44,629 bases of DNA from a virus: positions 1 through 44,629 of IMG/VR virus record IMGVR_UViG_3300044609_001915; one strand, 5' to 3'. Under the pieces are notes generated by a model that made no database searches, was not told the DNA's origin, and saw nothing but the letters and a program-made list of their open reading frames with translations. A program made the position numbers and the translations under genes. Of the stretch, positions 9,001 to 40,034 are shown in pieces. How positions within the stretch are numbered: the stretch's first letter is position 1; each line of letters opens with the position of its first letter.

Positions 9001-9183
9001 TTGGCCAATGGCTACGGCGGTACCGACCTGAAGACGGTGGCTGCCAAGCTCCAGGACATCGTGCAGGACGGGACACTGCGGATGGAGATCGGCGAGCTGG
9101 GCTTCCCCACGGGCCAGGCCCTGATCGACTGGCTGAACGTGGTGAAGGAAGCGTTCAACCTCAGCTACGTGAGCCAGGACTGA
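6040..9183 (+). CDS. Anti-phage-associated DUF499 AAA+ ATPase
   Basis: 1047 residues. Walker A AMGGGKTHSM (K79) and Walker B VIFLDELPPYL (D175, E176) define the P-loop ATPase; the N-terminus SVFAADRRATVLSLDTF and the FNGRSTDAAGGIWG segment are typical of DUF499. The C-terminal half is long and alpha/beta, with an immunoglobulin-like or bacterial chitobiase-like patch around residues 860-900 (VSIHYTTDGSSP). First gene of a four-gene rightward operon with 3 bases to the next gene. In this gene set the ATPase is expected to couple DNA sensing or translocation to the methylase and helicase. A leader of about 80 bases contains AT-rich stretches (CATAAATC, AACAAATAA) that may hold the promoter. Confidence 0.88.
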   Translation: MALKDLCTPRPSVFAADRRATVLSLDTFLKGSVDGTAFFEENYFTGGMLTLVDRAFRHLSGSGAGSSVFQLSQAMGGGKTHSMISLGLLARDPNLRQQVFTQIEGGNPAPSLGACQVVGFNGRSTDAAGGIWGSIAEQLGKEGQFAKYVAPLLSAPGPEAWKELLGEQPLVIFLDELPPYLEYAVAVPVGNGNLATVTTAALANLFVAVTEMPNVCLVLSDLGGTNYAGGQDNINQAVDKAIQQLSGESRRIAVPITPVNPNGDELYHILRKRLFAEVAPASAIDGVAGSYREALRDAVNMGLTTTTPESLYTRIQDSYPFHPDLRELVGKFKENEGFQQTRGVIRLMQMVVSDLWNSGKAGALDLIHPYDLDLNQDELASEVRTINPSLSEAIAHDIAHGGDAEVEEIDKANGNTDASDAARLILVASLSTTPGAIHGMREFQLVDCLQRPGRDLSAFKNNVLDKLATRAWYLHNSPDGRLFFKNQQNLAAKLRSTAQSLHNETVERMLREHLEDYFTPSLRDCFQVVKVLPPPDEVQLDQEKTTLVITRPGGQANGLPVSQDWQDWWQQQPFKNRVLFLSGSKDTYMKILDAARQSRALVSIEDDLKGENTPPDDPQWRALDSLRDRIGLQFTSALKETFDQLVYPSVNSALRASAIDLAFAGNTNGEATIKQTLITVRKFTTEISEDSFRSYAEAKLFGSADSAVVLWADVKRAAATRTDWPLHKPSALDDLKADAMQRDRWRPEGNYVRKGPFPPPTPNIEIREGARDEDGDGRTYLQLVPLHCDSIVFESGESEPTTASSPVPSAAKFEAKGLQYKFLAFDSENPERQSEVKTWTATLRLKKQLHDRGDHYEVELLAFPRVNGVSIHYTTDGSSPIGTNAAVYDGPIRVPDNCRKVCAVAQAPAYSLTSQGIVQDIPKRGEEARTIDPTRPARWQKVCKLDDSGAVWDLITRLEQNPGVLAYDVQLSAQSSDGEQIVDYSGSLANGYGGTDLKTVAAKLQDIVQDGTLRMEIGELGFPTGQALIDWLNVVKEAFNLSYVSQD

Positions 9184-9186
9184 GCC

Positions 9187-9810
9187 ATGGCCAGAACCCC
9201 CGTGGCGACGCGCAAGAGCATCGGACTGGGCTTTGTGCCGGAGGAGAGCCGCCATGGCTTTCTGATCCACATCCCCAAGGGCACCGCCAAAGGCGACCTG
9301 ATCTCGATCAGCGAGTACCGCGGCGATCGCTTCAGCGGAGCGGAGGTGACCTCTCTGCCGGCTCCGCCACCATCGGACCCTGCCCTGCGGGTGTCGCTGG
9401 ACCGGGGACGCTGGGCGGCGCTGGCGCCGGCGTTCTGGGAGGAGGCCAACCGGCGGCTCCGGGCCAATGGCCTTGCAACCGCCAAGCTCACCAAGAGCCC
9501 TACCAAACCAATCCCCGTGCATCCGTCGCTGGGCAAGGAACTGTGCGTGCTGTGCTGGGCGGTGGAAGAAGCCTCGATCGACGACATCCCCAATGCCCTG
9601 CGCAACTGGGAGGCGTTGGCACCGGAAGAGCGTTGGTGGCTCTACACGATGACGGTGGCCACCACAGGACAGGCGATGAAGAAGGGGGTTGGATGGCGCA
9701 AGGCCCTCCGCGCCGCCATCGCCGACAACCCCTTCGTGAAGGGCGAGGGGATGTCACCCAAAGCGCGCCGTGAGCTGCTCGGCCACTCGCAACTGACTCT
9801 GGAAATCTGA
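9187..9810 (+). CDS. Anti-phage-associated DUF3780 protein
   Basis: 207 residues. N-terminal IGLGFVPEESRHGFLIHIPKG and C-terminal PEERWWLYTMTVATTGQA...GWRKALRAAIADNP match the DUF3780 pattern as I know it. No catalytic motif is visible. It lies between the DUF499 ATPase and the DUF1156 methylase with gaps of 3 and 1 bases, so all are made from one mRNA. Probably an adaptor or specificity subunit of the complex; its molecular role is unknown. Confidence 0.82.
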   Translation: MARTPVATRKSIGLGFVPEESRHGFLIHIPKGTAKGDLISISEYRGDRFSGAEVTSLPAPPPSDPALRVSLDRGRWAALAPAFWEEANRRLRANGLATAKLTKSPTKPIPVHPSLGKELCVLCWAVEEASIDDIPNALRNWEALAPEERWWLYTMTVATTGQAMKKGVGWRKALRAAIADNPFVKGEGMSPKARRELLGHSQLTLEI

Positions 9811-9811
9811 G

Positions 9812-12805
9812 ATGCAGAAAGCTTTTATCGAAACGCAGTTCCCGATCGCACGGCTCTCTGCAGAGTCATATAAAGAACGTAAGGCTGGAGCCAGCCAAAC
9901 GCTGACAGGCTTGGGCAAGTGGTGGGGACGAAAGCCGCTGATCCTTGTACGAGCCTGCATCCTCGGGATGCTGATGCCGGCGTCTGACGATCCCAAGAAA
10001 GACCGCGAGATCTTCCTGAAGGTCCTCACAATGGACGATGAAGGTGCATGGCAGCGCCAGAAGGGAGAAATCCCGGTCAAAGCCTGGAGGGAAGCCGCCC
10101 CTTCAAAGATTCAGGAGAAGTACTTTAGCGCACGTGGCTTTCAAAGAGGAATCAACGACGAAGAAAAGGAATTCATACTGGCAGAAATCTGGGAAGGACT
10201 GGACGACAATCAGCGACATCATCTTGACAATCAACGCAGGCGCCCAATCAATGATCGAACAGCATTTAACGCATTGCCTTATGCCGAGCGCATTGCCAAC
10301 TGCGAACGGCCAGAGAACGTACCGGGCCCGAATGCTTCTGCCTGGGAAGAAATAAATAAACATCTCAGCACAACCGCTTACACCATCCCTGAACTCATCA
10401 GACAATTAAGCCAACGATCGTTTGGTCACACACTCCAATTAGGAGACTGCTTTTGTGGCGGAGGGTCGATTCCATTTGAAGCCGCTCGGATTGGCTGTGA
10501 AGTTCATGCATCTGACCTCAGTCCTGTGGCAGCCCTGCTCACCTGGGCAAGCTTAAATCTACTGAGCGAATCCGAAGGTGCGCTGCAGGAAGTCCACCAA
10601 ACGCAGGAAGCCGTTTTTCAGGAGGCCGACAAGCAGATCACTGAGTGGGGCATTGAGCACAACAACAAAGGCGAGAGGGCGGAAGCATTTCTTTATTGCG
10701 TGGAAGCAAAGCCACCAGGTTGCGACTATTACATCCCGCTAGCACCAACCTGGGTTCTTTCAGAAAAGCATCGAATCGTAGTCGCCTGGAACAGGCAAAA
10801 AGGAGCAGACCAGCTTCAGCCAATAATCAAAGAAGTTTCAGATGCCGAGCTCAAGCTCTATAAAGCTAAAAAAGGAGCCACTATCGTAGACGGCAGAGTA
10901 ATTGACCCGCTTGACAACAACCGTTCTTGGTCAGTAGAAGCCCTTCGCGGCAGAGAGGGACTTCGGCGCTGGAGAAAAGATGATGTCCTGCCGCAGGATA
11001 ACGATATTTTCCAGGAACGCCTGTATTGCATTCGCTGGATAGATCACTCAGCAGGCAGGCGCTACGCAGCTCCTGATGCCGCAGACCTTGCTCGAGAGAA
11101 AGAGGTGCTACGCCTTCTTCAAGAACACCTTGACGAGTGGCAAAAGAAAGGGTTCATTCCCTCTACACCAATTCCCGAAGATGGCGAGAAGACTGATGAA
11201 CCCATCCGAACACGCGGGTGGACACATTGGCACCACTTGTTCACGCCACGCCAACTTCTGGTGCATGGCTTATTTGCCCAACTATGGGACTCCCGTGCAG
11301 CCTCTACACCTCATCACTTTGCATCCCTGACCGTCTCTCTATCAACAACAATCGACAACAATTCGAGACTATGCAGATGGACCTCGCATCCGAACAGGTC
11401 ATCACCTGCGTCTACTTTTTCAAACCAGGCACTGAACACACTTTATAACTATCCAACAAGAGCACTGCACTGGATTAAGCCATTCCTAGTCCCAGGGCTG
11501 AATCGTGTTGAGATGGCTGGCGAAGGGAGAGTAGCAGTTATTGACGCGAGAGACATCACGGATACTTGTGATATTTGGATTACCGATCCCCCATACGCTG
11601 ACGCGGTTAACTACCACGAACTTGGCGACTTCTTCCTGTCATGGTATCGCGAGAAAATGAAGAAGCACTTTCCATCTTGGGGAGCTGATTCTCGCGCAGA
11701 GCTCGCAGTGAAAGGCGACGGCGAAGAGTTTAGTCGCTCCATGGTTGAAATCTACAGCAACCTTGCCAAGCACATGCCTGAAAATGGCATGCAAATAGTC
11801 ATGTTCACCCACCAAAACCCCGCGGTTTGGGCCGGTCTTGGCATGATTCTCTGGGCAGCTGGCCTTAAAGCCACTGCCGCCTGGACTATTAGCACAGAAA
11901 CCGAAGCGGCGGGCATTAAAAAAGGCAACTACGTTCAGGGAACTGTCTGCCTGGTATTGCGCAAACGCAAGGGAGACGAACCTGGATTCCTTTTTGATAT
12001 TTACCCCATGGTCGAAGATGAAGTTCGCCTGCAAATTGCCTCAATGCAAGCCCTAGACGAAAACGGTGAGCCCAATTTCAACGATTCCGACTACCAACTA
12101 GCAGCATACGCAGCGGCGCTGAAGGTTCTAACTCAGTATTCAAGCCTCGACGGGAAGGACGTAGCCAACGAAGTCTTCGCCATTCGTGGCAAAAATGAGA
12201 AGAGCGACTTCGAGCAAGTCATCGAACGTGCCATCACCATCGCCTGCGATGCCCTCATCCCCAAAGGTCTCAGCGACTCTTGGCGCGACCTCAACCTGAT
12301 CGAGCGCTACTACCTTCGCGCCGTTGATATTGAATCCCGCGGTGAGCGCCGAAAAGGCATGTACGAAGAACTCGCCCGCGGCTTCGGCGTCACCGATATC
12401 AAGCCTTTGCTCAAGAGCGACAAGGCCAACGGCACCCGCGTGCACACCCCTTCAGGATTTGGCACCAGCCTTCTGGCCCCGATCGACAGAGCTGTTGCAA
12501 CAGCCGCTGCCCTGCCACGCCGAGGACGTGCCAGCAGCAGCGGTCCGCATCCTTTCGCGGCAACTCCACTCCGCCACCTGCTGTTCGCCGTTTGCGAAAC
12601 CGCTGCAGCCGACAACGATCCCAACCAGGGGCGCCAGTACCTGCGCGACACCTTCGGGCAGACCTACTGGGGCCGCCGGGAAGGAATGGTGCGCCTGCTG
12701 GATTGGCTCGCCGCCCTCGGCAACTCAGAGGACACCGCCGACTGGGCCAAAGACTCAGAAGCCGCACGCATCCTGGCCGGCCGCCTGAGAAACGATGACG
12801 CCTGA
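9812..12805 (+). CDS. DUF1156 adenine-type DNA methyltransferase of the defence operon
   Basis: 997 residues. The N-terminus (FPIARLSAESYKERKAG...LGKWWGRKPLILVR) is the DUF1156 signature. SAM-binding motif I is GDCFCGGGSIPFEA (about residues 211-224) followed by VHASDLSPVA; the catalytic motif IV DPPY starts at D592. This pattern belongs to amino-methylases acting on exocyclic amines (N6-adenine or N4-cytosine). It would mark host DNA so that the system spares it. The stop overlaps the start of the next gene (TGATG). Base use is odd: about 10100-12150 is visibly richer in A/T than both ends of the same gene, suggesting that the middle, which includes the catalytic and likely target-recognition region, was exchanged by recombination. 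Confidence 0.88.
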   Translation: MQKAFIETQFPIARLSAESYKERKAGASQTLTGLGKWWGRKPLILVRACILGMLMPASDDPKKDREIFLKVLTMDDEGAWQRQKGEIPVKAWREAAPSKIQEKYFSARGFQRGINDEEKEFILAEIWEGLDDNQRHHLDNQRRRPINDRTAFNALPYAERIANCERPENVPGPNASAWEEINKHLSTTAYTIPELIRQLSQRSFGHTLQLGDCFCGGGSIPFEAARIGCEVHASDLSPVAALLTWASLNLLSESEGALQEVHQTQEAVFQEADKQITEWGIEHNNKGERAEAFLYCVEAKPPGCDYYIPLAPTWVLSEKHRIVVAWNRQKGADQLQPIIKEVSDAELKLYKAKKGATIVDGRVIDPLDNNRSWSVEALRGREGLRRWRKDDVLPQDNDIFQERLYCIRWIDHSAGRRYAAPDAADLAREKEVLRLLQEHLDEWQKKGFIPSTPIPEDGEKTDEPIRTRGWTHWHHLFTPRQLLVHGLFAQLWDSRAASTPHHFASLTVSLSTTIDNNSRLCRWTSHPNRSSPASTFSNQALNTLYNYPTRALHWIKPFLVPGLNRVEMAGEGRVAVIDARDITDTCDIWITDPPYADAVNYHELGDFFLSWYREKMKKHFPSWGADSRAELAVKGDGEEFSRSMVEIYSNLAKHMPENGMQIVMFTHQNPAVWAGLGMILWAAGLKATAAWTISTETEAAGIKKGNYVQGTVCLVLRKRKGDEPGFLFDIYPMVEDEVRLQIASMQALDENGEPNFNDSDYQLAAYAAALKVLTQYSSLDGKDVANEVFAIRGKNEKSDFEQVIERAITIACDALIPKGLSDSWRDLNLIERYYLRAVDIESRGERRKGMYEELARGFGVTDIKPLLKSDKANGTRVHTPSGFGTSLLAPIDRAVATAAALPRRGRASSSGPHPFAATPLRHLLFAVCETAAADNDPNQGRQYLRDTFGQTYWGRREGMVRLLDWLAALGNSEDTADWAKDSEAARILAGRLRNDDA

Positions 12806-15606
12806 TGCTCAAGCACCACTCCAGTCGTCGTAGCCGGCTCGATCAAGGCGTTCTCAACGAGCGCCTGCAAGGGGCGGTGAGCTACGACCGCATCGCCGGG
12901 TACTTCCGCTCCAGCCTGCTGGAAGTGGCCGGTGAGGCGATCACTGGGGTGAGCGGCAAGGTGCGGATCATCTGCAACTCCGACCTGGATCCTGACGACC
13001 TGGCCACCGCCACTGCAGCCCAGGCTGCGCTGCGCCGCAGTTGGTGCGCCGGCCAACCCGAGCTGGCGCCTCCCAAGGCACTGCCCCGCTACAAGGCGCT
13101 CTACGACGCCTTGCTCAGCGACAAGATCGAAATCCGCGTGTTGCCCGACACGGCCTTCGGGTTGATCCACGGCAAGGCCGGTGTGATCCGTTACGCCAAC
13201 GGCAGCAGCACCGCCTTTCTGGGCAGCGTTAACGAAAGCGCCAGCGCCTGGAAGCTCAACTACGAGCTGCTCTGGGAGAGCGATGAGCCAGACACGATCG
13301 ACTGGGTGCAGGAGGAGTTCGACGCCCTCTGGAACGATCACCGAGCACGGGCCCTGGCCGACTGCCCGTTCATCCAGAACGACGTGCAGCGGATCATCCA
13401 CCGCCAGGTGGTGGAACCCGAGGCGCTGCAGAAAGTTGATGTGATGGAAGCCGCCGCCGCGGCTGCGGTGGAAACCCCGATCTACCGGCGGGAGCAGGGG
13501 CTCTGGCCCCATCAGAAATACTTCGCCAGCCTGGCGCTGGAACGCCATCGCCTTGGCGGCGCTCGGCTGGTGCTGGCCGACCAGGTGGGCCTGGGCAAGA
13601 CCATCCAGTTGGCCATGGCCGCGCTGTTGATGGGCCTGGAAGATCCGGAGGGTGGCCCGATCCTGGTGTTGGCGCCCAAGCCCCTGCTGCAGCAATGGCG
13701 CGATGAGCTGATGGAGCTCTTGCAGCTGCCATCGGCTTATTGGAACGGCCGCAGCTGGGTGGATGAAAACGATGTGGAGCACCCATCAGAAGGGGTGACT
13801 TCGCTGAGCAAATGCCCGCGCCGCATCGGCCTGGTTTCGCAGGGCCTGATCGTGCGCGGGATGCCGCAGGCGATCCGCCAACTGCTGAACCAGCGCTACA
13901 CCTGCGTGATCGTCGACGAGGCCCATCGGGCGAGGCGCCGTAACCGACCCAAGATGGACGCCGGCCAACCCGAGGTGGACGAAAAGGCAGAGCCCAACAA
14001 GCTCATGAGCTTCCTCTGCCAGATCGGCGCGAAGACCAAGAGCATGCTGCTGGCTACCGCCACCCCGGTGCAGTTGCATCCGGTGGAGGCATGGGACCTG
14101 CTCTCAATCCTCTCCAACGGCAACGAGGGCGTACTGGGCGGCATCACCAAGACCAGTCGCTGGTTCAGTGCCTACCGCACCATCCAGGTCGCCACCGGTG
14201 AGCAAACCGTTCCTGCCGACGACGAGGTGGAGGGTTGGGAGTTCGTTCGCGACCCGCTGCCGGCCTCCACGGAAGACCCCGCCATCGAAAAGATCCGGCG
14301 GCAATTGCGGGCTCCAGAGAAGAAGTGGCAGTTCACACCAGAAACGCTCGACCGGTTACCCAATGCCATTCGCCGCGTTCAGCTGAAGAACAAGCTGCTG
14401 CCGGAGTATGGCGAGCGCTTCAACCCGCTCCTGCGCTGCATCGTGCGCCGCACCCGCAGCTACCTGGAGCAGGAGATCAACCCAGCCACCGGCAGCTACT
14501 ACCTCCCCAAGGTGGAGGTGAAGCTCTTCGGGGAAGACGACAACGACGCCATCAACCTCGGCGGCTACCTCAAGGAGGCGTACGAAGAAGCCGAACAATT
14601 CAGTGAGCTACTGCAGAAGCGGATGCGTGGGGCTGGGTTTTTCAAGACCCTGCTACTGCGCCGCCTGGGCAGCTCGATGGAGGCCGGCCGCAACACCGTG
14701 GGCAAGCTGCTGAACATTTCGCCAGATACCGGCGACGACGAAGACGAGGACGATGCCGACGAAGACCTCTTCGGCAACGACGGGCAGCCACAGGGCTACA
14801 GCGAGTTCCGCAACTTCTCCACCGACGAGATTTCGTCCCTTGAGCGCTGCCTGAACCTGCTTAAGCAGGGCGGCAACCGCGATCCCAAGCTCGAAGCCAT
14901 CCTTGGCTACCTGCTCGGCACCAACCCCAATGCCACTGAGCGCTGGGTGGATCGGGGCTGCATCCTCTTCTCGCAGTACTACGACACGGTGCGCTGGGTT
15001 GGTGAGCAGCTCGCCAAACACCCCGACATCCCCAGCGATCTGACCATCGGCCTCTACGCCGGCAGCAACCGTTCCGGCTTCTGGCTGGGCGGCCGCTTCC
15101 AACGCTGCGACCGCACCCTGCTGAAAGACCGGGTGCGCAAGGGCGAGATCAAGCTGCTGCTCGGCACCGATGCCGCCTCCGAGGGCCTCAACCTGCAGCG
15201 GCTGGGCACGCTGATCAACATTGACCTTCCCTGGAATCCAACCCGCCTGGAGCAACGCAAGGGCCGTATCCAGCGCATCGGCCAGGCCCGCAACCAGGTG
15301 TGGATCGCCAACCTGCGCTACCGCGACTCGGTGGAAGACAAGGTGCATCGCGTGCTGGCCGAGCGCCTGCAGGCCATCCATGAACTCTTCGGCCAGATCC
15401 CCGACACCCTGGAAGACGTGTGGGTGAAGGTGGCCCTCAACGACGAAGCCGAGATCGCCGAACTGATTGATCAGACCACCGCCACTCGCAACCCCTTCGA
15501 CAAGAAGTACAGCAAAGTCGAAGATGCAGCCTGGGAGACCTGCGCGTCAGTGCTGAACCCGATCAGCGTTAGGGAGTTGATGGAGGCGGGGTGGAATGAA
15601 GCCTAA
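12805..15606 (+). CDS. PLD-like SNF2-family helicase/nuclease of the defence operon
   Basis: 933 residues. An N-terminal phospholipase-D-like domain (residues about 1-200) has LIHGKAGVI (H122, K124) and GSVNESASAW, one HKD-type half site. It is followed by a SNF2 superfamily II motor: Walker A DQVGLGKTIQ (K265), DEAH box (D371-H374), LLLATATPVQL motif III, and C-terminal GTDAASEGLNLQ with QRKGRIQRIGQ (motifs V and VI). Between them is an acidic insert around residues 640-660 (run of Asp/Glu). PLD nucleases normally dimerise to build a full active site. The protein is the likely DNA translocase and effector of the system. Start ATG 12805 overlaps the methylase stop. Confidence 0.88.
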   Translation: MLKHHSSRRSRLDQGVLNERLQGAVSYDRIAGYFRSSLLEVAGEAITGVSGKVRIICNSDLDPDDLATATAAQAALRRSWCAGQPELAPPKALPRYKALYDALLSDKIEIRVLPDTAFGLIHGKAGVIRYANGSSTAFLGSVNESASAWKLNYELLWESDEPDTIDWVQEEFDALWNDHRARALADCPFIQNDVQRIIHRQVVEPEALQKVDVMEAAAAAAVETPIYRREQGLWPHQKYFASLALERHRLGGARLVLADQVGLGKTIQLAMAALLMGLEDPEGGPILVLAPKPLLQQWRDELMELLQLPSAYWNGRSWVDENDVEHPSEGVTSLSKCPRRIGLVSQGLIVRGMPQAIRQLLNQRYTCVIVDEAHRARRRNRPKMDAGQPEVDEKAEPNKLMSFLCQIGAKTKSMLLATATPVQLHPVEAWDLLSILSNGNEGVLGGITKTSRWFSAYRTIQVATGEQTVPADDEVEGWEFVRDPLPASTEDPAIEKIRRQLRAPEKKWQFTPETLDRLPNAIRRVQLKNKLLPEYGERFNPLLRCIVRRTRSYLEQEINPATGSYYLPKVEVKLFGEDDNDAINLGGYLKEAYEEAEQFSELLQKRMRGAGFFKTLLLRRLGSSMEAGRNTVGKLLNISPDTGDDEDEDDADEDLFGNDGQPQGYSEFRNFSTDEISSLERCLNLLKQGGNRDPKLEAILGYLLGTNPNATERWVDRGCILFSQYYDTVRWVGEQLAKHPDIPSDLTIGLYAGSNRSGFWLGGRFQRCDRTLLKDRVRKGEIKLLLGTDAASEGLNLQRLGTLINIDLPWNPTRLEQRKGRIQRIGQARNQVWIANLRYRDSVEDKVHRVLAERLQAIHELFGQIPDTLEDVWVKVALNDEAEIAELIDQTTATRNPFDKKYSKVEDAAWETCASVLNPISVRELMEAGWNEA

Positions 15607-29261: not shown

Positions 29262-30602
29262 ATGATGAGGGGCGTTCAGCCCACAGACTCGATGGCTCGA
29301 CATAGACGCCTTGGGGCTCTCGCTATAGCGACCTGCGCAGTCCTCGGGATCAGCAGCTCCACCCTGGCCCAGACGGCCGACAACAAAGCCGACACCCCCA
29401 AGCCCGCTCCAGGGGAGGTGATTGAACGGGAGTCCGATCTGGACTGGAAGAACCCAAGAGCAGGGGGGATCGAGTGGTCCAAGCTGATCAAGGTGACCTC
29501 GAAGCTATCCGGCAGCTCTTATTACGTCGTTCTTGATCGTGATTACAAGAAAGACGGAAACAACGGTCTGACTGAGGGGATGATCACCCGCTGGAGCAGC
29601 GACTCAGTCACCGGCTACGAATACATGCATGGAGGCTGTGGCTTCTGGACCTGCACCGGCGGATCAGACTTCCGCGAATTTTCTGGAACGGTCGAACTCT
29701 TCTATGCAGGCGAATCGTTCCTGCTCTACGGCAACGATGGCGAATATTCCCTGCCGCAGAAATTCATTGACGCCGTCATCGCAGGCAAAGGCGATCAACC
29801 GCTCTCGATCAAGCTTTCCAAAGGCCGGCGCTCCAGCGTGGTGTTTCCGATTGGCAAGGAAACCCTTCAATCACTATCAAGACTCTTCCAGATGGAGACC
29901 AAGAGCTGGACAAAACCTCAGCTCTCCATCGCTGTTGGACGTGCAAGCAAATCGAATCTCGCCGCTGAGGACCTGATTCCCCGCGTCATCCCATCTGTTG
30001 TCTCCATCAGAAGCGACAAGGCTCTTGGCAGTGGCTTTGTCTTCTCGCCTGACGGCCTGATCATGACCAACAGGCATGTCATCGCCGGCAGCGGCGTGGG
30101 CAAGTATCAGGTCACTGCCGACAACGGTGCCAAGACAGAAGCCGTCCTTGTCTATGTGGACAAGAAGCTCGACTTTGCCCTGCTGAAGACCGATTCCAAG
30201 ATCTCAGCACCACCGATTCCCGTCTGCTACATGGCCTATCCGAAGGCCGGGCAGGATGTGATTGCCATTGGATCTCCAGACGGAATCGCTGGAACAGTCA
30301 CCAAAGGCGTGGTGAGTGCAGTCCGTAAACCTGTTGATCAACTCAAGGGACTTGCCCCCGAAAACGTCCTGTTGATTCAGCACGATGCGGCGATCAGCCC
30401 CGGCAACAGTGGCGGCCCATTGGTGAACGCCCGCGGGGAGCTGCTTGGGGTCAACACCTATGGAATAGCGGGCTCTGATCGCTTGAATCAGAACATCAAC
30501 TTTGCAATTTCGATCATCGACATCCTCAAGGCACTGGAACTGCGGGCACCGGCAACAGTGAAGGGAGCTCCACTCACAGCCTGCGGGAACCTCAGCAGCT
30601 GA
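29262..30602 (+). CDS. HtrA/Deg-like trypsin-family serine protease, secreted
   Basis: 446 residues. A signal peptide (RHRR then ALAIATCAVLGISSSTLAQ) sends it to the periplasm. Residues about 55-240 are a domain not found in common HtrA. The protease domain has the full triad: H272 in MTNRHVI, D304 in LDFALLK, and S383 in SPGNSGGPLV. No PDZ domain follows, so it differs from DegP. The role on the element is unknown: it may remove misfolded periplasmic proteins, shed host receptors or be plain cargo. It ends 1 base before the convergent integrase gene. Start alternatives ATG 29265 and 29292. Confidence 0.85.
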   Translation: MMRGVQPTDSMARHRRLGALAIATCAVLGISSSTLAQTADNKADTPKPAPGEVIERESDLDWKNPRAGGIEWSKLIKVTSKLSGSSYYVVLDRDYKKDGNNGLTEGMITRWSSDSVTGYEYMHGGCGFWTCTGGSDFREFSGTVELFYAGESFLLYGNDGEYSLPQKFIDAVIAGKGDQPLSIKLSKGRRSSVVFPIGKETLQSLSRLFQMETKSWTKPQLSIAVGRASKSNLAAEDLIPRVIPSVVSIRSDKALGSGFVFSPDGLIMTNRHVIAGSGVGKYQVTADNGAKTEAVLVYVDKKLDFALLKTDSKISAPPIPVCYMAYPKAGQDVIAIGSPDGIAGTVTKGVVSAVRKPVDQLKGLAPENVLLIQHDAAISPGNSGGPLVNARGELLGVNTYGIAGSDRLNQNINFAISIIDILKALELRAPATVKGAPLTACGNLSS

Positions 30603-30603
30603 A

Positions 30604-31743
30604 TCAGGACGCTGCCCTGAGCACCGCCTGGAGCGACTCCATCTCGTGGGCGTCAAACCAGCGCTGGTAGACGCTGCTGTGCACCGCAAGGCTGTGGCCC
30701 ATCGACTTGGCCGCCAGCGAGGGGGAGATCTTCGGGTTGTGAATCGCCCGCACCGCCCAGGCGTGGCGCAGGTCGTAGGGCTGGAACTCTGCTCCGGCCC
30801 GGCGGAATGCCTGCCCCATCAGTGCACCCACGTCACGGTGGCTTCGCTCCGGATTGAACCCCGGCAGCCGCTTGTTGTGCAGGGACCAACGCTCGATCCA
30901 TTCGGGGGGCAGAGCCAGCGACTGGCGGGCCCCGGTCTTGCCATCGGCAATGCGCAGCAGTCCGGACGGTTGCACCTCAGCGAACAACAGCGCTTCATGG
31001 GGCCGGCAGCCGTACACAGCGGCAACCGCAACAGGCCACTGCCACGCGGCTGAGAGTCGATCGATCAAGGCTTCGATCGCCTCATCCTTGGGCAGATCAC
31101 GGGGCGCCTGGCTGCGGGACGCGCTGTAACCCTTGCCAAGTTCCCGCAGTTGGGACACCAGTGCATCGGGCCAATCGAGCGCACGGGCAACGGTGGCCGC
31201 GGCCTGGGATGACCGCCGTCGTGAGCGGCTGCCGGATGGCGTTGCTTCCACCAAGGCCACCAGGTGCTCAGGCAACAGAGGGCCGATGTCCAGCAGCGGC
31301 GCCAAGGGAGCGTCGTAATCCACCTTCCAGCTGTCGTCCGCTGAGGGGCCTCTGCGGCGTTGCTTTCTCCACCACTGATGGGTGATCCGGATGGCCTGCC
31401 GGCCGCTGATCCCCTCAGGCTGGTCTGGAACGGCCGCCGGCTTCCTCTGACGCCCTCTGGGCATCCAGGGAGCCCAATCGAATGCCTCCAGCCCGAGGCG
31501 ATGGCGCTCCAGTGCATTGCCCAGCTGCTCAGCCAGCTGCAGCGACTCCGTGGCCTGATCCGGGTAGGCAAGACCGGTGCTGATGCGGTGCTGCCTGGGC
31601 TCAGAGCCGGGCGGGTCTGTCGGCCGCGGCGGCATGGTCGCCCGCAGGCGCACCCGACCACCCGCCACATCGAGGGTGACCCCGTGACCTTTCAGCTTCA
31701 GAGCAGCGTTCTGGCGGGCCAGCCAGGGGTCGGAGGGGGGCAC
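30604..31743 (-). CDS. int: Tyrosine recombinase (integrase)
   Basis: 379 residues from GTG 31743. Catalytic residues are visible: R247 (YGCRPHEAL), K269 (DGKTG), R326 in YDLRHAW, H350 in KSMGH and nucleophile Y359 (SSVYQRWF). The N-terminal half holds an arm-binding region (GGRVRLRATMPPRP) and a core-binding helix bundle. It joins attP at 31887-31935 to a host tRNA-Arg(CCU) gene and cuts it out again. The arm sites at 31748-31809 lie directly upstream of its start and so probably also regulate its promoter. Closest in style to cyanobacterial prophage and tycheposon-type integrases. Confidence 0.92.
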   Translation of the reverse strand: MPPSDPWLARQNAALKLKGHGVTLDVAGGRVRLRATMPPRPTDPPGSEPRQHRISTGLAYPDQATESLQLAEQLGNALERHRLGLEAFDWAPWMPRGRQRKPAAVPDQPEGISGRQAIRITHQWWRKQRRRGPSADDSWKVDYDAPLAPLLDIGPLLPEHLVALVEATPSGSRSRRRSSQAAATVARALDWPDALVSQLRELGKGYSASRSQAPRDLPKDEAIEALIDRLSAAWQWPVAVAAVYGCRPHEALLFAEVQPSGLLRIADGKTGARQSLALPPEWIERWSLHNKRLPGFNPERSHRDVGALMGQAFRRAGAEFQPYDLRHAWAVRAIHNPKISPSLAAKSMGHSLAVHSSVYQRWFDAHEMESLQAVLRAAS

Positions 31744-31809: not shown

Positions 31810-31886
31810 CGCCAAAGCCTCGTGGAAGCGGCTTTTTCGGCCCTTGCTTCCCTGAAAACCCTTGCCGCAACTGGGCATTTGAAGCA

Positions 31887-31935
<49 letters not shown>

Positions 31936-31968
31936 GGGCCTGAATCCCCGACTGGCGTCCCAGGGGCT

Positions 31969-32045: not shown

Positions 32046-32555
32046 GTGGCGGCTGATGACCCCCTGACCCCGGCCGAAAGGCTCTTCGCGGAAGCCGGCT
32101 ACAGCAGGCTCCAGTACCTGGCATGGCGGGTTGGGTCGCTGCCCATGCTGGAGGTACAGGCCGCATTAAACGCCGTTGGCAGCGGCTGGCCCGCAGAGGT
32201 GCTGGCAAAGCAACGCAGCGAAGCCACCCTGGCGCGGCGATGGATTGAGCAGCAGCAACAGCGCGACCGCAAGGTGCCGCCTGAGCCGGTCTCAACCCAG
32301 AGCAGCGGCAAGGCGTATGGCCCTTCCATGCCCTCTCGAGAAGCCATCGAGCTTCTTGAGAGGGAAGCCCAGGATCTCGGCACACACCACAGCTTCAAGG
32401 CGTTTGAGAAAGCGCTGAATCGTGCAGCCAAACGGGCGCGTGAGAACCCTGATCTGCTGCCGGTCCCCCTGGGCGGTCAACACAACGATTGGGAGCTCGT
32501 CGCACTCGGTCCGGGAGGGCATGGCGGGGCACACGTCGTCAGAAGGCAGCTTTAG
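32046..32555 (+). CDS. Hypothetical protein, paralogue of the next gene
   Basis: 169 residues. N-terminal LTPAERLFAEAGYSRLQYLAW and C-terminal FEKALNRAAKRAREN...PVPLGGQHNDWELVALGPGG align with LTAESLFLQAGQSQIAYLNW and FNKALWRAAKAFRQK...PEPLGGAGEGWALAGLGDGG of the following protein. The two therefore share both ends and differ by an inserted middle. Helical, no known domain. Duplicated genes of this kind suggest a subunit pair or diverged immunity proteins. First gene after attP. Confidence 0.6.
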   Translation: MAADDPLTPAERLFAEAGYSRLQYLAWRVGSLPMLEVQAALNAVGSGWPAEVLAKQRSEATLARRWIEQQQQRDRKVPPEPVSTQSSGKAYGPSMPSREAIELLEREAQDLGTHHSFKAFEKALNRAAKRARENPDLLPVPLGGQHNDWELVALGPGGHGGAHVVRRQL

Positions 32556-32613
32556 AAGCACCACCAGTAGTGGTGGTAGCTGCTTGCACTCCAAATGCAG
32601 CGGCTAGCCTGAA

Positions 32614-33447
32614 ATGAACCCCATTCGACACCCGATGACACATCGGGCATCAGGCGACACACCCGATCGTCGTGATTCACAAGGGCCGATCGGCAGAGAA
32701 CCACCTCTGATCGGCATCAGCGCACCCTGGCGATGGCAAACCAAGCCGGCCGCAGAGGCTCAGCCGGATCCGGAGCTGAAGCAGCCTGGCACTGCCTTCA
32801 TACAGCTCGCGGAAGCACTGCGGCCCTACGGCTTTCGCTGGCCTCCTGAGCGCCCGACCAGCCAGCCAGCCGCACAGCTGACGGCAGAAAGCCTGTTTCT
32901 GCAGGCTGGGCAAAGCCAGATTGCCTACCTGAACTGGAAGACCGGGACGCAACCGAACCTCCGACTGGTGCGCCTCTTCTTGCTGATGCAGCGAGGCTGG
33001 AGCACGACTGCCATCCAGGAAGCCATCCATGAGCCAGCTCTGGCGAGCTGGTGGTTGAGCGGAGAAGCCACCGCATGGGGAGTGGATCCAACGACCAAGA
33101 AGGCCAGCCGAGCCCTCGTGTCGTTTCTGCACACCAAACCCGAACACATCGAAGCCGCCTGGCAGGAGCGTTTAGAGGCTGAGCAGCGCCGGCCATCGGC
33201 CCCGCAACCCAACCCGGAGCCGACGGAGCCAGCGATGCTGAGCTCAAGAGAGGTTGCCGCCACGCTTCAGCCTGCTGACAGACAGGCGTTCAACAAGGCC
33301 CTGTGGCGGGCGGCCAAAGCGTTTCGCCAGAAAGGGGGCCGGAAGCCAGAACCCCTTGGCGGCGCTGGTGAAGGTTGGGCCCTCGCCGGACTGGGGGATG
33401 GCGGGCATGGCCGCGGTCACCAACTCGTGAGGGCACAGGCTGAATAG
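32614..33447 (+). CDS. Hypothetical protein, larger paralogue
   Basis: 277 residues, 58 bases after its paralogue. It has a disordered, basic N-terminus (about 70 residues), then the two shared blocks described for 32046-32555, with extra helices between them (LRLVRLFLLMQRGWSTTAIQEAIH). The Gly-rich C-terminal GAGEGWALAGLGDGGHGRGH is the most conserved element of the pair. Unknown function; probable operon with the two following genes, since the gap is only 54 bases. Confidence 0.6.
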   Translation: MNPIRHPMTHRASGDTPDRRDSQGPIGREPPLIGISAPWRWQTKPAAEAQPDPELKQPGTAFIQLAEALRPYGFRWPPERPTSQPAAQLTAESLFLQAGQSQIAYLNWKTGTQPNLRLVRLFLLMQRGWSTTAIQEAIHEPALASWWLSGEATAWGVDPTTKKASRALVSFLHTKPEHIEAAWQERLEAEQRRPSAPQPNPEPTEPAMLSSREVAATLQPADRQAFNKALWRAAKAFRQKGGRKPEPLGGAGEGWALAGLGDGGHGRGHQLVRAQAE

Positions 33448-33501
33448 CCAAAACCCACCCGAGCAGGCCAGTCTGGATCTAGCTGTGCCACTGCCGTAGA
33501 G

Positions 33502-34971
33502 ATGGCCTACCTGGTCGACAAAGAGTTCCTGGAAGCAACTCAGGACTGCTTTGAAAACGCTGTGGCCACTGGAATTCTGCAACTCGCCAGCACCAACCCT
33601 GACCTGGATCAATTCAGCGGACACGCCTTCCTTGACAAGAAGAGGCTCTGGGTCAGGACCAACCAAGGGTTCTGCGTTCGCTTCTCACCGGAGATCACCT
33701 GTATGACGTCGGCGCTGGTTCGCAGCGATGTCGACGTGCCTCCATGGCTAGCAGAACAACTCCGCCAGATCTGCCAGAGCAGTATTCAGATTGCCCTGCA
33801 GTTTCAGAAAGCCTGCCTCAAGCAACACCTGTTTCAAGCGACTGAGGTGGATGAAGATGTTCTCGAGGTTCTTGACGATCAACAGCTGAGCCTGGAGCGA
33901 GGCGTAGCAGCAGGGATGGCTTACCACGCCGGAGCAGCTGCAGCTGAGCGATCCATCGCAGCCGAACGCATCCAGAACGACCCCACCTGGAACAAGACTC
34001 TTCAATCCACTGCATCACCTGGCAACGGATTGATCACGAACCAAGGCGAGCTCAGCGGCAACCCCAACTCCCAGGGCTTCGCTGCTGAATACAAGGTGAT
34101 CAACACCTTCAATGCCCAGGCCGCAGCCGCGGAAAGCCCCTATCGCGCGATCAGCACAGAATCGCTTGGCGGGAGCACATCACAGAACTCGCCTGACATC
34201 CAGATCGTCGACCTACGAACAGGTGATGTTGTCGATGAAATCCAGGTGAAATCCGGCAGCCATCAGTACGTCAGCAGCTCGATCAGCAACGACCGCTACG
34301 GGGAGATGCACAAGCTGCACAATCTGGAAGCAGGGTCGGTGGATGGTGGCAGCCGAAGCTACACCTCACCCGACCAGCGGGTGCAAGTTGGCTTTTCGCA
34401 GGAGGAAGCCCGCCAGATCGCACGGGATCCACAGGCATATGTCGATGACCAGCGAACGCATGTTCAGCAACAAGTCATTGGGGAGAAGATCGCCAGCGCT
34501 GCGCAAACACTGACGGCAGGAGCGATGGCGGGTGCCGGGATGAGCGCCGCTGGCGGTTTTGCCGAATGCCTTGGAGCCATTGCGCGCGGCGATTCCGCAC
34601 GCTCCGAAACCATCCTCAGATCGATTCCACAGCGCACCAAGGACGGCGCCCTCAGAAGCTTTGGTCGTGCTGGAGTCATTGCAGCGACTCAGGCGCTTCT
34701 CGGCGCCAACCCAGTGGCGGCAGGGGCTGGCGTGGTCGGCGTCGACATGGTGCGCTGCTTTGGCGCGGTCCTCAATGGTCAACAAACGCCGGAAGAAGCC
34801 TTTCGGGACGTGACGCCAAGAACCCTCGGAACGATGGCAACGGTGTCGCTCTGCATGGCCAATCCAGCCATTGCCGCCGGGATCATCGGATACCGCTTTG
34901 CCTATGGCTTCATCCGCAGCTACGCGAAGGCGACGCCTGGCGCAGCCTTGAGCTCTCGCACTGCTAATTGA
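33502..34971 (+). CDS. Putative Mrr-like (QxK) nuclease with membrane-active C-terminus
   Basis: 489 residues. The middle segment (about 195-260) has the pattern of the PD-(D/E)xK fold in its QxK form: EYKVINTFN (acidic helix), then D232 in SPDIQIVDL and Q248-V-K250 in EIQVKSGS. The N-terminal 170 residues form a helical domain. The C-terminal 150 residues are rich in Ala and Gly with three to four hydrophobic stretches (TAGAMAGAGMSAAGG, ANPVAAGAGVVGV, ANPAIAAGIIGYRFAYG) that could enter a membrane or oligomerise. Nuclease activity is inferred only from the motif. It is coupled to the zinc-ribbon gene downstream (3 bases). Confidence 0.5.
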   Translation: MAYLVDKEFLEATQDCFENAVATGILQLASTNPDLDQFSGHAFLDKKRLWVRTNQGFCVRFSPEITCMTSALVRSDVDVPPWLAEQLRQICQSSIQIALQFQKACLKQHLFQATEVDEDVLEVLDDQQLSLERGVAAGMAYHAGAAAAERSIAAERIQNDPTWNKTLQSTASPGNGLITNQGELSGNPNSQGFAAEYKVINTFNAQAAAAESPYRAISTESLGGSTSQNSPDIQIVDLRTGDVVDEIQVKSGSHQYVSSSISNDRYGEMHKLHNLEAGSVDGGSRSYTSPDQRVQVGFSQEEARQIARDPQAYVDDQRTHVQQQVIGEKIASAAQTLTAGAMAGAGMSAAGGFAECLGAIARGDSARSETILRSIPQRTKDGALRSFGRAGVIAATQALLGANPVAAGAGVVGVDMVRCFGAVLNGQQTPEEAFRDVTPRTLGTMATVSLCMANPAIAAGIIGYRFAYGFIRSYAKATPGAALSSRTAN

Positions 34972-34974
34972 ACC

Positions 34975-35898
34975 ATGTTTCTGAAATTCCTCGACTCAAT
35001 TCTCCCAGGCTCGGGAGCCATCATCAAGACCGCCGTTCGTGCCGTACAGCGGGGCGTCGCATCCCTTGTTCAGTCGCTGCGAGACGACTGGACCAAGGTG
35101 ACATCATCACAGGGAACGGCAACTCGCCCTTCCGAAGAAATCCGGCACGACATCAACGAGACCGATGAAGAAATCACCGACCTTGAAAGAAAATTAAGAC
35201 GCGACGGTCAACTCAATAGAAGCGACGAAGAGCAGCTTGAAGAACTCAGGCGACAGGCCATGGACCTGGCCGAGGAGCACCAACAAGCACGCGCAGAAGA
35301 GACAACCTCTGAGATTCTCCACGACACAAGCGAAGCATCCGCAACCTCACTATCTCAGGACTATCTGCACATTCTTGACTGGTCACGCGGCCCCGCTGTC
35401 CGCATGAAGCCCTGCCCGAAGTGCAGAGCTCCCATGTATCTCAATAGGCGAAATCAACCACAGAACGCCATCTTCACGATGAGGGACTATTTCTGGGCTT
35501 GCACAAACTTCTACATCCCCGAGGGAACACCAGGCCGCTGCAATGGGACCCTATCCTTCAGCGACCAGGACTTTGGCCTGCTTCACAAGGCCGGCATTCC
35601 CGAGCTCGAGATCACACGAGACCAGTTCACACTGATCACCTCGCAAAAACCCGCGCTCAAGGTGATCGAAAAGAAAATGAGCCAAGTTCTGGGAGCCCAG
35701 GACATCGACATCAACTGCCCAATTCACGGCCTTCCACTTGTGCTACAGGAAAAACAAACAGCCGAGGAAGGAAATGTTCTGGATTACTACTACCTATGCT
35801 GCCCGCACATCGGCTGTCGCCAAATACGAAAGCTCAAAGATGCAGCCCAACTCGCCTCATTCTTAAGCAGAAACACCGGGGAAGGCATCTTGCAATAG
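34975..35898 (+). CDS. Zinc-ribbon protein coupled to the nuclease-like gene
   Basis: 307 residues. N-terminal amphipathic helix (FLKFLDSILPGSGAIIKTAV), then a coiled coil (about 55-105, Glu/Arg-rich), then two zinc-binding units: KPCPKCRAPMYLNRR...WACTNF...GRCNGTL, like topoisomerase C4 fingers, and INCPIHGLPLVL...YLCCPHIGCRQIRK. Four or more Cys in each support zinc. It probably binds DNA or RNA and works with the QxK protein just upstream. The two-gene unit is not known to me. Confidence 0.6.
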   Translation: MFLKFLDSILPGSGAIIKTAVRAVQRGVASLVQSLRDDWTKVTSSQGTATRPSEEIRHDINETDEEITDLERKLRRDGQLNRSDEEQLEELRRQAMDLAEEHQQARAEETTSEILHDTSEASATSLSQDYLHILDWSRGPAVRMKPCPKCRAPMYLNRRNQPQNAIFTMRDYFWACTNFYIPEGTPGRCNGTLSFSDQDFGLLHKAGIPELEITRDQFTLITSQKPALKVIEKKMSQVLGAQDIDINCPIHGLPLVLQEKQTAEEGNVLDYYYLCCPHIGCRQIRKLKDAAQLASFLSRNTGEGILQ

Positions 35899-36313: not shown

Positions 36314-36595
36314 ATGTGCAGAGTCTTTGAGCGCTTCAAGGCCAGCACCGCTAGCGCGACTGGCTTCGTGCTGATGTTGCTCGTCTGCACTGGTGAACCT
36401 GCTCGTGCGTTGACCGCCGATGAAGAGGCAGCTTTGAAAACCCTTTGCAGAGCCAGCCTCAGAGCCAACGGAGGCACCTGGGCTTCTGAGCGGATCAACG
36501 CTGCGATCGCCACCTTGGCTTTCGGGAGCGATTGGCCCGATGACGCCCAGGCCACGGCCTACAAGACCTGCACCACCAGGGGCTATCTGAACTGA
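36314..36595 (+). CDS. Small secreted or membrane-anchored protein
   Basis: 93 residues from ATG 36314. A hydrophobic stretch (ATGFVLMLLVCTGEPARA) after a basic N-terminus fits a signal peptide with cleavage near residue 30. The mature part of about 60 residues has two cysteines (TLCRAS and KTCTTR) likely to be disulphide-bonded. No family recognised. Divergent from the basic protein at 36156 and ends 16 bases before a strong hairpin. Confidence 0.5.
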   Translation: MCRVFERFKASTASATGFVLMLLVCTGEPARALTADEEAALKTLCRASLRANGGTWASERINAAIATLAFGSDWPDDAQATAYKTCTTRGYLN

Positions 36596-37857: not shown

Positions 37858-38409
37858 TTGGGCAGATCTGACGCCCATCAAGAAGACGCATCAAGCCCGG
37901 AGTTCATCGACGATCCGGTGAATGCACTGCGGGAAGCCGCGCCTTCAGAAGATGCCGACGGGAAGCCGATCTGGCCTCATCCAGCGAGACACGAGACATC
38001 CAGAAAACGACACCCAAACTGCAGCCAACCACCACGCCGCAGCAGCGAAAAACCCTTTGCACCCCGCCCGAGCCGCCAGGAAACCGAGCGTCGGATCGCC
38101 GAGGCCCAACTCTGGATTGCCCAGAGGCTTCCTCTGATCGAGATTCGGGACAATGCTGCCCGAAACTGGGGGATCACCAACACCAAAACCGTGAGCCGCT
38201 ACCTGGCTCTGGCACGGGAACGGATGGTGGAAGAATTGATCAGCAACCGGCTTCAACATCAAGCCGAGCAGATCTTTGCTCTCAATGAACTCGCCCGTCG
38301 GGCGATGGACAAGGAGCAATTCAATGCCGCCGTTGGTGCCTATCGGGTGATTGCCGAGATCGGCGGAATGCTGCGGGCTCCTTTGAAGGCGCCGGAGAAC
38401 AGGCCCTGA
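37858..38409 (+). CDS. Probable small terminase subunit
   Basis: 183 residues from TTG 37858; GTG 37918 is an alternative, and the frame is open further upstream, so the start is unsure. The first 75 residues are disordered and basic. Residues about 78-130 form an HTH-like domain (ETERRIAEAQLWIAQRLPLI, then RNWGITNTKTVSRYLALA) and the rest is helical (FALNELARRAMDKEQFNAAV, then GAYRVIAEIGG), the usual layout of small terminases: DNA binding, then oligomerisation. The stop overlaps the start of the large terminase (TGATG). It would recognise the packaging site, perhaps the hairpin repeats upstream. Confidence 0.68.
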   Translation: MGRSDAHQEDASSPEFIDDPVNALREAAPSEDADGKPIWPHPARHETSRKRHPNCSQPPRRSSEKPFAPRPSRQETERRIAEAQLWIAQRLPLIEIRDNAARNWGITNTKTVSRYLALARERMVEELISNRLQHQAEQIFALNELARRAMDKEQFNAAVGAYRVIAEIGGMLRAPLKAPENRP

Positions 38410-40034
38410 TGCCTGCCATCAACCCAGCAGGTTCTGCAGGATTGCTCCACGCGCTCGACGCCTGGGGCGACTGCGGCGTGCTGGGTGTACGTGCTCCCTC
38501 CCGGACCTCGGATGCCGATCCCAACACCGGGGACTTCCGCCATTTCATCGCCGCGGCCTACCCGGGCTACGCCTTTCACACCTGGGCTGAACGGCTGATT
38601 GCGCTTCTGCAGCAGGTCGCCGATGGAGAGCTGCAGCGCTTGATCGTCTGCTGCCCGCCACGACTCGGCAAGTCGCTGCTGGTCTCCAAGCTGTTCCCCG
38701 CCTACTGGGTGAGCCGCTACCCGCATCGCTTCTGCGCGATCGCCTCCTATTCAGCGGAGCTCGCCTACGCCCACAGCCGGGAGGCGCGCCACTTTTACCG
38801 CTCCTGCGGCCACCCCCTCTCGAAGGACTCGACGGCAGTGGGTAACTGGCTGACGCCCCAGCGCGGAGGGTGCATCGCTGCCGGGGTGCGGGGTCCGTTC
38901 ACAGGCAAGGGCTACGCCCTCGGCGTGATCGACGATCCCTACAAAGGCCCGGAGGACGCCGGCAGCGCCGCCCAGCGGCAGAAACTGATCGAGTGGTTCC
39001 AGTCCGTCTGGCTCACCCGCGCCGAACCCGGAGTGAACGGCGCAGTGGGAGCGGCCCAGGTGGTGGTGCTGACCCGATGGCATCAAGACGACCTGATCGG
39101 CTGGCTGCTGGAGCAGGAGGCAGGAGATGCACCGCAGCACTGGCATGTACTCAACCTGCCCGCCCTTGCGGAATCCCAGGAGATGCGCCTGAGCTTCCCG
39201 CCCACCTGCAGCGTGGAGCCGGAATGGCGTGAACCCGGTGCTCCGCTCTGCCCAGAGCGTTTCCCCCTCGCGGAGCTGGAGCAGATCCGCATTCGCACGG
39301 GCCGCTACTGGTGGGAAGCGCTGTACCAACAACGGCCTTCCCCCGCAGAGGGACTGCTCTTTCGCAGCGAGTGGTTACGGCCAGCGCACGTGCGCCTGCG
39401 CAGCAATGAAAGCAGGGCTTACGCCCCACTGGTGCTCTCCTGCGATCTGGCCTTCAAGGGTGGCGCCCACAACGATCCCTGCGGCTTTGTTCTGTTGGGG
39501 TTGGTGGAACAGAGCAGAACCCCGCAGTCGCTGAACCAGGCGCGAACCCAGGGCCTTCAGCTGCACCCGAGCGCCGCCGCCATGGACACGGAGCTGGAAC
39601 CACCGTTTCTGATCGAGGTGCTCTGGGCCCAGCGCCATCAGCTGGATCTGCCGGGCACGGTGCATTACTTGCTGCAGAGCCTGGATGCCCTGAAGCGTCA
39701 GGGCATGAACCCCGATGCCGTGTTGATCGAAGACGCCGCCAATGGCCCGGCGGTGTGTCAATTGCTCAGACGCCAGATCCCTGGGCTGATCGCCATCCGG
39801 CCGCAGGGAAGCAAGGTGAGCCGCGCCCATGCCGTGGCCCCATGGCTCGAAGCGAAGCAGGTGGGATTTCATCGCACCACGGAGGCGCTGCAGAGCGAAC
39901 TGCTCGGATTCCCCACCGGTGCGCATGACGACCTGGTGGATGCCTTCTGCCAGGGCGTGATCTGGCTGCAGCAACAGCACTGGCGCGGCAGAGGCAGAAG
40001 CGAGCCGCCGCGGCCGCTGCTGTTCTCCCACTGA
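38409..40034 (+). CDS. terL: Phage terminase large subunit
   Basis: 541 residues. ATPase: Walker A CCPPRLGKSLL (K88), Walker-B-like GVIDDPY (D175, D176), coupling motif VVLTRWHQDDLIGW. Nuclease of the RNase H fold: D346 in SCDLAFKG, D442 in IEDAANG, and D507/D508 in GAHDDLVDAF. It cuts concatemeric DNA and pumps it into the procapsid through the portal encoded at 41367. Complete and apparently functional. Overlaps the small subunit gene and is followed 19 bases later by the sigma factor gene. Confidence 0.93.
   Translation: MPAINPAGSAGLLHALDAWGDCGVLGVRAPSRTSDADPNTGDFRHFIAAAYPGYAFHTWAERLIALLQQVADGELQRLIVCCPPRLGKSLLVSKLFPAYWVSRYPHRFCAIASYSAELAYAHSREARHFYRSCGHPLSKDSTAVGNWLTPQRGGCIAAGVRGPFTGKGYALGVIDDPYKGPEDAGSAAQRQKLIEWFQSVWLTRAEPGVNGAVGAAQVVVLTRWHQDDLIGWLLEQEAGDAPQHWHVLNLPALAESQEMRLSFPPTCSVEPEWREPGAPLCPERFPLAELEQIRIRTGRYWWEALYQQRPSPAEGLLFRSEWLRPAHVRLRSNESRAYAPLVLSCDLAFKGGAHNDPCGFVLLGLVEQSRTPQSLNQARTQGLQLHPSAAAMDTELEPPFLIEVLWAQRHQLDLPGTVHYLLQSLDALKRQGMNPDAVLIEDAANGPAVCQLLRRQIPGLIAIRPQGSKVSRAHAVAPWLEAKQVGFHRTTEALQSELLGFPTGAHDDLVDAFCQGVIWLQQQHWRGRGRSEPPRPLLFSH

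Follow-up and report, generated by a model that had tools for sequence, protein, structure and literature searches.

Which of the genes carried beside the attachment site of a temperate cyanophage belong together, and what might they do? We analyzed a window of 44,629 nt that comprises the whole stretch of the IMG/VR virus record IMGVR_UViG_3300044609_001915, and whose carrier is a temperate cyanobacterial virus. In a preliminary description of this DNA, four open reading frames (ORFs) next to the phage attachment site (attP) had been grouped into one unit of cargo. The four ORFs, here called P1 to P4, are present as described, all rightward and separated by short gaps of 58, 54 and 3 nt, and they adjoin a tRNA-Arg-like half-sequence at ~31886-31940. 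However, the cargo consists of only two of them: P3 and P4 form a separate, portable module that is foreign to the phage backbone. The features of this region are as follows.

33480..35892, plus strand: portable module, P3-P4 with 22 bp upstream; the sole stretch shared with the chromosome of the cyanobacterium G328 (locus L072), at 82.5% DNA identity
33502..34971, plus strand: P3, 489 amino acids, with a helical N-terminal part, a predicted PD-QxK nuclease-like core (~187-305) and a helical, Gly/Ala-rich C-terminal part, as judged from the family alignment, AlphaFold2 models and fold matches
34975..35898, plus strand: P4, 307 amino acids, with an amphipathic N-terminus, a charged coiled-coil-like middle and two zinc-ribbon-like clusters whose ligands are invariant in homologues
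32046..32555, plus strand: P1, 169 amino acids, a phage-backbone gene adjoining the att site, outside the P3-P4 module; in L117-L120, P1 or fragments of it adjoin this same core
32614..33447, plus strand: P2, 277 amino acids, P1 paralogue of the phage backbone, found with P1 but without P3-P4 in L117 and L118
~31886..31940, no strand assigned: attP, tRNA-Arg(CCT)-like 3' half-sequence, where homology with L001 starts; the same core is present in L117-L120
36398..36595, plus strand: right side of the slot, the sequence directly 3' of P2 in empty-site prophages; the match resumes at 36398 (L117) and 36495 (L118)

The separation of the two gene pairs was observed in both directions. Prophages of G500 and G596 (L117 and L118), which are cyanobacterial genomes of the G328 family, carry P1-P2 at the same att core and then the terminase, with P3-P4 absent; their large terminase subunits (TerL) are 61% and 88% identical to that of the window. 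In two further genomes, P1 or its start adjoins the same att core. Conversely, the G328 chromosome carries P3-P4 but no P1-P2, between flanks that are unrelated to the phage and beside a gene that looks like one for a serine recombinase. In the viral collection, terminase-bearing relatives, two close phages excepted, have none of the four genes in the available stretch upstream of their terminase.

Composition and divergence pointed in the same direction. The GC content at third codon positions (GC3) is 0.65 for P3 and 0.62 for P4, compared to 0.78-0.81 for the terminase, the integrase and the 25698-28508 gene, and synonymous divergence (dS) between L001 and L002 reaches 0.39 for P3 and 0.76 for P4 but only 0.13-0.20 for TerL, P1 and P2. 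At the same time, ratios of nonsynonymous to synonymous divergence (dN/dS) of 0.06-0.10 for P3 and 0.04-0.07 for P4 indicate strong purifying selection. Since the two-way separation, GC3 and divergence agree, we conclude that P3-P4 is portable and has a history of its own, while P1-P2 belong to the phage backbone. A single four-gene system is ruled out by the two prophages with P1-P2 alone and the chromosome with P3-P4 alone. The preliminary description had itself regarded homologues occurring singly in unrelated contexts as an argument against its unit, and such occurrence was indeed found with regard to both the four-gene unit and P4.

The first two genes had also been described as paralogues, which was confirmed, as P1 matches the P2 region of related phages at 30-31% identity (E 1e-11 to 1e-13); neither had a single match in the Pfam, PHROGs, NCBIfam and PADLOC family libraries. 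A scan that cyanobacterial promoters may not fit detected neither a consensus promoter nor an excess of terminator-like sites. Beyond P4, the segment 35941-36595 holds two overlapping ORFs on opposite strands, and in other phages relatives of the minus-strand ORF lie downstream of the terminase, at a distance of ~5-8 kb, so that this piece may have moved.

What kind of protein is P3? The D-(x)n-QVK motif originally noticed in it was borne out by an alignment of 32 family members, in which both D232 and K250 are invariant. The nuclease-like site comprises E196, D232 and Q248-V-K250, and ten residues are invariant altogether (G192, A195, E196, F203, N204, A207, A216, S230, D232 and K250), whereas Q248 is kept in 28 of the 32 members and replaced by S or G in the other four. 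This layout is that of an Mrr-type PD-QxK nuclease site to which a helix glutamate is added; the PD-QxK enzymes form a recognised catalytic subgroup, to which the BisI family, MspJI and EcoKMrr belong. P3 nevertheless differs from these enzymes in having no sequence-level match to any such family (Mrr, MspJI, BisI) and no recognised domain for reading modified bases, and in possessing an extra helical C-terminal part, the invariant helix Glu and a G-x-x-A-E...F-N-x-x-A motif.

Structure prediction, which had been proposed as a check for a nuclease fold, yielded such a core in a homologue and partly in P3 itself. The AlphaFold2 model of the homologue shows an αβββαβ nuclease core with a predicted local distance difference test score (pLDDT) of ~70-91, and some of this order is seen in the P3 model as a helix-strand-strand-strand arrangement at residues 190-249 with a pLDDT near 70. 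Structural matches to the homologue core were mostly proteins of the restriction-endonuclease fold, including BsaWI, AgeI, BstEII, Can2, Hjc, VRR_NUC, RecU, EndoMS and HindIII, with Z scores of 3.0-4.9. These scores are individually weak, and their weight comes from the agreement among the matches. Foldseek alone gave no significant match in the PDB or in a viral library, and a sequence search of the PDB with P3 was empty.

The C-terminal part of P3 had been described as hydrophobic and Gly/Ala rich. It is helical and Gly/Ala rich, but less hydrophobic than this description implies, with Kyte-Doolittle peaks of only 1.45 and 1.55 in a 19-residue window. The GxxxGxxxG pattern, present 6 to 9 times in AAA-linked homologues, occurs neither in P3 nor in its G328 copy.

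P3 belongs to a broad, unnamed family. Searching the phage collection with P3 returned one weak match (E 0.02), and the plasmid collection contained no direct match; the weak phage match led to a gut homologue (26% identity over 362 amino acids) and from there to Klebsiella and Enterobacter plasmids. A family pattern then comprised 33 loci in genomes of Firmicutes, Gammaproteobacteria, Synergistota, Spirochaetes and Sericytochromatia. Viral contigs yielded no relatives when scanned with the gut and Klebsiella homologues, and the family profile recovered from them just the two phage copies already known.

A CDC48/SpoVK-like AAA+ ATPase is encoded near the P3-like gene, in most cases as its direct neighbour, in 18 of 22 loci examined, and 16 of the 22 have a gene for an 'IKFNL...RWL' protein of ~310 amino acids that starts like 'MAKTIKFNL...'. 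The Klebsiella plasmid homologue resides in an operon with VWA, AAA+ (with a biotin-lipoyl-like end), CARF-nuclease, PP2C and kinase genes. Other neighbours of P3-like genes (n = 90) include seven WYL domains, two cytosine DNA methylases and single matches to BrxC, BrxL, PglZ, Sir2 and other defence models, which suggests a defence setting, although these are counts without a random-locus baseline and enrichment is thus not established.

Within cyanobacteria, most of the low-scoring matches to the P3 profile covered the glycine-rich C-terminal stretch alone and were set aside as compositional, as were weak P3 matches in six genomes of the G328 family. Two stand-alone cyanobacterial relatives (L073 8417-9589, minus strand, and L057 1315-2736) share with P3 a G-x-x-x-E ... 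D ... Q-A-K-V-G core and have a hydrophobic C-terminus; unlike the window, neither has P4. The L073 relative adjoins one gene that is weakly DUF4145-like and another that is Gly rich; in L073 6581-9589 (minus strand) the relative and its neighbour have a common C-terminal tail (...WD(L/I)FGAS...AMQ.ELDSLLE), while a Gly-rich stretch and an LRAT-like H...NCEHW motif are found in the gene that comes next. At L074 8819-9943 (plus strand; identical to L054 871-1995), we found a relative with the N- and C-terminal helical parts and no nuclease core, a natural core-less variant, followed by the ~310-amino-acid partner gene. L029 contains two successive pairs of an AAA+ ATPase and a P3-like gene (6439-9509 and 11309-14364), the second more divergent.

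Contrary to the initial view that no known system has such a composition, the P3 family has very probably been published as part of a large defence operon. Bell et al. (2024, PMC11090510) described an extension of the Type III-A coiled-coil nuclease tandem (CoCoNuT) systems in which a SpoVK AAA+ ATPase accompanies a 'bacteriocin-like glycine zipper' protein whose PD-(D/E)xK fold they call 'inactivated'; theirs was the only description of glycine-zipper defence proteins that we found in a literature search for stand-alone systems. P3 is homologous to the Klebsiella plasmid protein (38% identity over 77 core residues, and over more of its length through intermediates), whose operon resembles the setting of Bell et al. 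in its CDC48-like AAA+ ATPase with a biotin-lipoyl-like end, its CARF-nuclease and its TerY-P-like set. P3 thus very probably belongs to the CoCoNuT glycine-zipper protein family, an identification made from gene content rather than from a comparison of accessions. The window differs from the CoCoNuT extension in that no AAA+ ATPase, VWA, kinase or phosphatase gene adjoins P3-P4, the partner is the double zinc-ribbon protein P4, P3 has no glycine zipper and the pair is phage borne. There was no AAA match among the window neighbours of P3 (P2 and P4) or near the G328 copy, and neither CnuB/CnuC (McrBC type) nor TerY-P was present among the neighbouring genes, to which the scan for them was confined.

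P4 is predicted to be a coiled-coil protein with the two zinc ribbons that had been noted for the fourth protein: the ligand clusters C147/C150/C176/C189 and C248/H251/C276/H278/C281 are invariant in six homologues of 33-88% identity. Homologues were found in five other cyanobacterial genomes, and no match was found in the phage collection. Two of them adjoin small hydrophobic glycine-rich proteins, which hints, though with small numbers, that P4 partners a glycine-rich helical domain. No similarity of P4 to the AAA+ ATPase or to the ~310-amino-acid gene was detectable. In PADLOC-DB 2.0.0, P1 to P3 were without a match, and P4 gave weak ones to LmuB, JetC and PbeC (best 5e-5) that lie in or overlap the coiled coil.

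What, then, might the module do? Our working proposal, to which we give about even chances, is that P3-P4 serves defence or superinfection exclusion as a cargo cassette of two genes, inserted between the att-proximal P1-P2 and the terminase. The earlier idea of defence-type cargo with a nuclease-fold protein is supported to the extent that relatives of P3 sit by AAA+ and WYL genes, bacteriophage exclusion (BREX) genes, methylases and TerY-P/CARF operons, and that the slot is empty in related phages. P3 would be the effector, with its Mrr-type PD-QxK core between helical N- and C-terminal parts, the latter being the glycine-zipper domain in relatives. P4 would act as partner or sensor and would probably bind nucleic acid or P3; the CDC48/SpoVK-like AAA+ ATPase and the ~310-amino-acid protein hold the partner role in relatives, and P4 would replace the ATPase here. 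Recognition of invading or abnormal nucleic acid by P4 would release or recruit P3, which, judging from its fold and conserved residues, might then cleave DNA or, abortively, the cell's own nucleic acid, and the C-terminal part of P3 could conceivably anchor it at the membrane. The membrane role is the weakest part of this mechanism, given the modest hydropathy and lack of a glycine zipper in P3, and the abortive or membrane-active mode of action previously suggested is still conjectural.

Several observations weigh against this proposal. The AlphaFold2 model of P3 itself is poor (mean pLDDT 44.9), all structural matches to the homologue model stay at or below Z 5, a range in which the tool warns of chance similarity, and P3 has no match in PADLOC, Pfam, PHROGs and NCBIfam. 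Its membrane segment is weak. The P3-P4 pair was found in just four places, none of the five other cyanobacterial P4 homologues adjoins a P3-like gene, and beside P3-P4 there is neither the AAA+ partner nor the WYL regulator that is typical of the P3 family.

Furthermore, Bell et al. (2024, PMC11090510) regard the related fold as inactivated, and P3 could accordingly be a catalytically dead nuclease fold that binds nucleic acid or protein, the pair serving as a sensor or scaffold, as was suggested for its CoCoNuT-associated relatives. The replacement of Q248 by S or G in four family members would fit such a role. However, E196, D232 and K250, unlike most of the protein, do not vary between phyla, and PD-QxK is an active configuration in Mrr-type enzymes; because this E-D-K set is invariant across phyla, we consider the label 'inactivated' doubtful for the nuclease fold, and a dead P3 rather unlikely.

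The module might instead benefit the phage, for instance, through an effect on host DNA or on a competing phage in the course of lytic growth, or serve counter-defence, and not be expressed from the prophage for defence. Its position on the terminase side of the att site, in the same direction as the terminase, and the strong constraint in all three phage copies can be read in this way; against it, a chromosome keeps P3-P4 intact with no other parts of the phage around, and P3 relatives occur in chromosomal and plasmid defence neighbourhoods, so that we hold this explanation to be distinctly improbable. Still less probable is a toxin or bacteriocin-like pair in which the glycine-rich helical C-terminus of P3 harms competing cells or membranes and P4 is accessory or confers immunity. 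Relatives do have long glycine zippers, called 'bacteriocin-like' by Bell et al. (2024, PMC11090510), and small hydrophobic Gly-rich proteins adjoin two P4 homologues, but P3 has only modest hydropathy and no GxxxGxxxG, and no secretion gene was seen beside P3-P4.

The remainder of the window provides the context of the P3-P4 cassette. A 127-bp exact repeat is common to both window ends, which would fit a phage genome that is circular or circularly permuted. The tRNA-Arg(CCT) identity at attP comes from inspection of the anticodon stem-loop by eye, and ARAGORN detected no complete tRNA there. Homology with the related records L001 and L119 starts at or just before this half-sequence; since the DNA to the left of the att site in L001 differs from that of the window, L001 is probably an integrated copy. 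Two backbone features flank the region.

30604..31743, minus strand: tyrosine integrase, lying across attP from P1; phrog_1 match at 1.3e-07, 99% identical in G002
37858..40034, plus strand: small and large terminase-like subunits that serve as backbone anchors; the names follow from sequence and from conservation across other virus contigs

Beside the integrase, a trypsin-like protease gene (29262-30602, plus strand; Trypsin_2 match 5e-31) is 99.8% identical in L080, while the surrounding genome is only ~81-87% identical, and the protease-integrase block has apparently been exchanged recently. At 6040-15606 (plus strand), three large neighbouring genes encode proteins with DUF499 (1e-19), DUF1156 methyltransferase-like (6e-23) and PLDc plus SNF2 helicase regions. 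We take this trio to resemble arrays related to the defence island system associated with restriction-modification (DISARM), and the phage may thus carry a second defence cargo.

Correcting the boundary of the candidate system from four genes to two matters for its cloning. Temperate cyanophages are shown to carry, as a cassette of two genes, a family otherwise known only from its place in very large defence operons, to which it is an add-on; in the cassette a zinc-ribbon protein stands in for the ATPase, and the unit of ~2.4 kb offers a small, testable system for the catalytic activity and the defence role of a widespread nuclease-fold family. It is possible, if somewhat unlikely, that P3-P4 represents a new minimal anti-phage system, in which a double zinc-ribbon sensor controls an Mrr-type nuclease with a membrane-directed helical tail, borne by temperate cyanophages and exchanged with host chromosomes. 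If so, the P3 relatives that are paired with a CDC48-like ATPase would be active nuclease systems and not inactivated ones.

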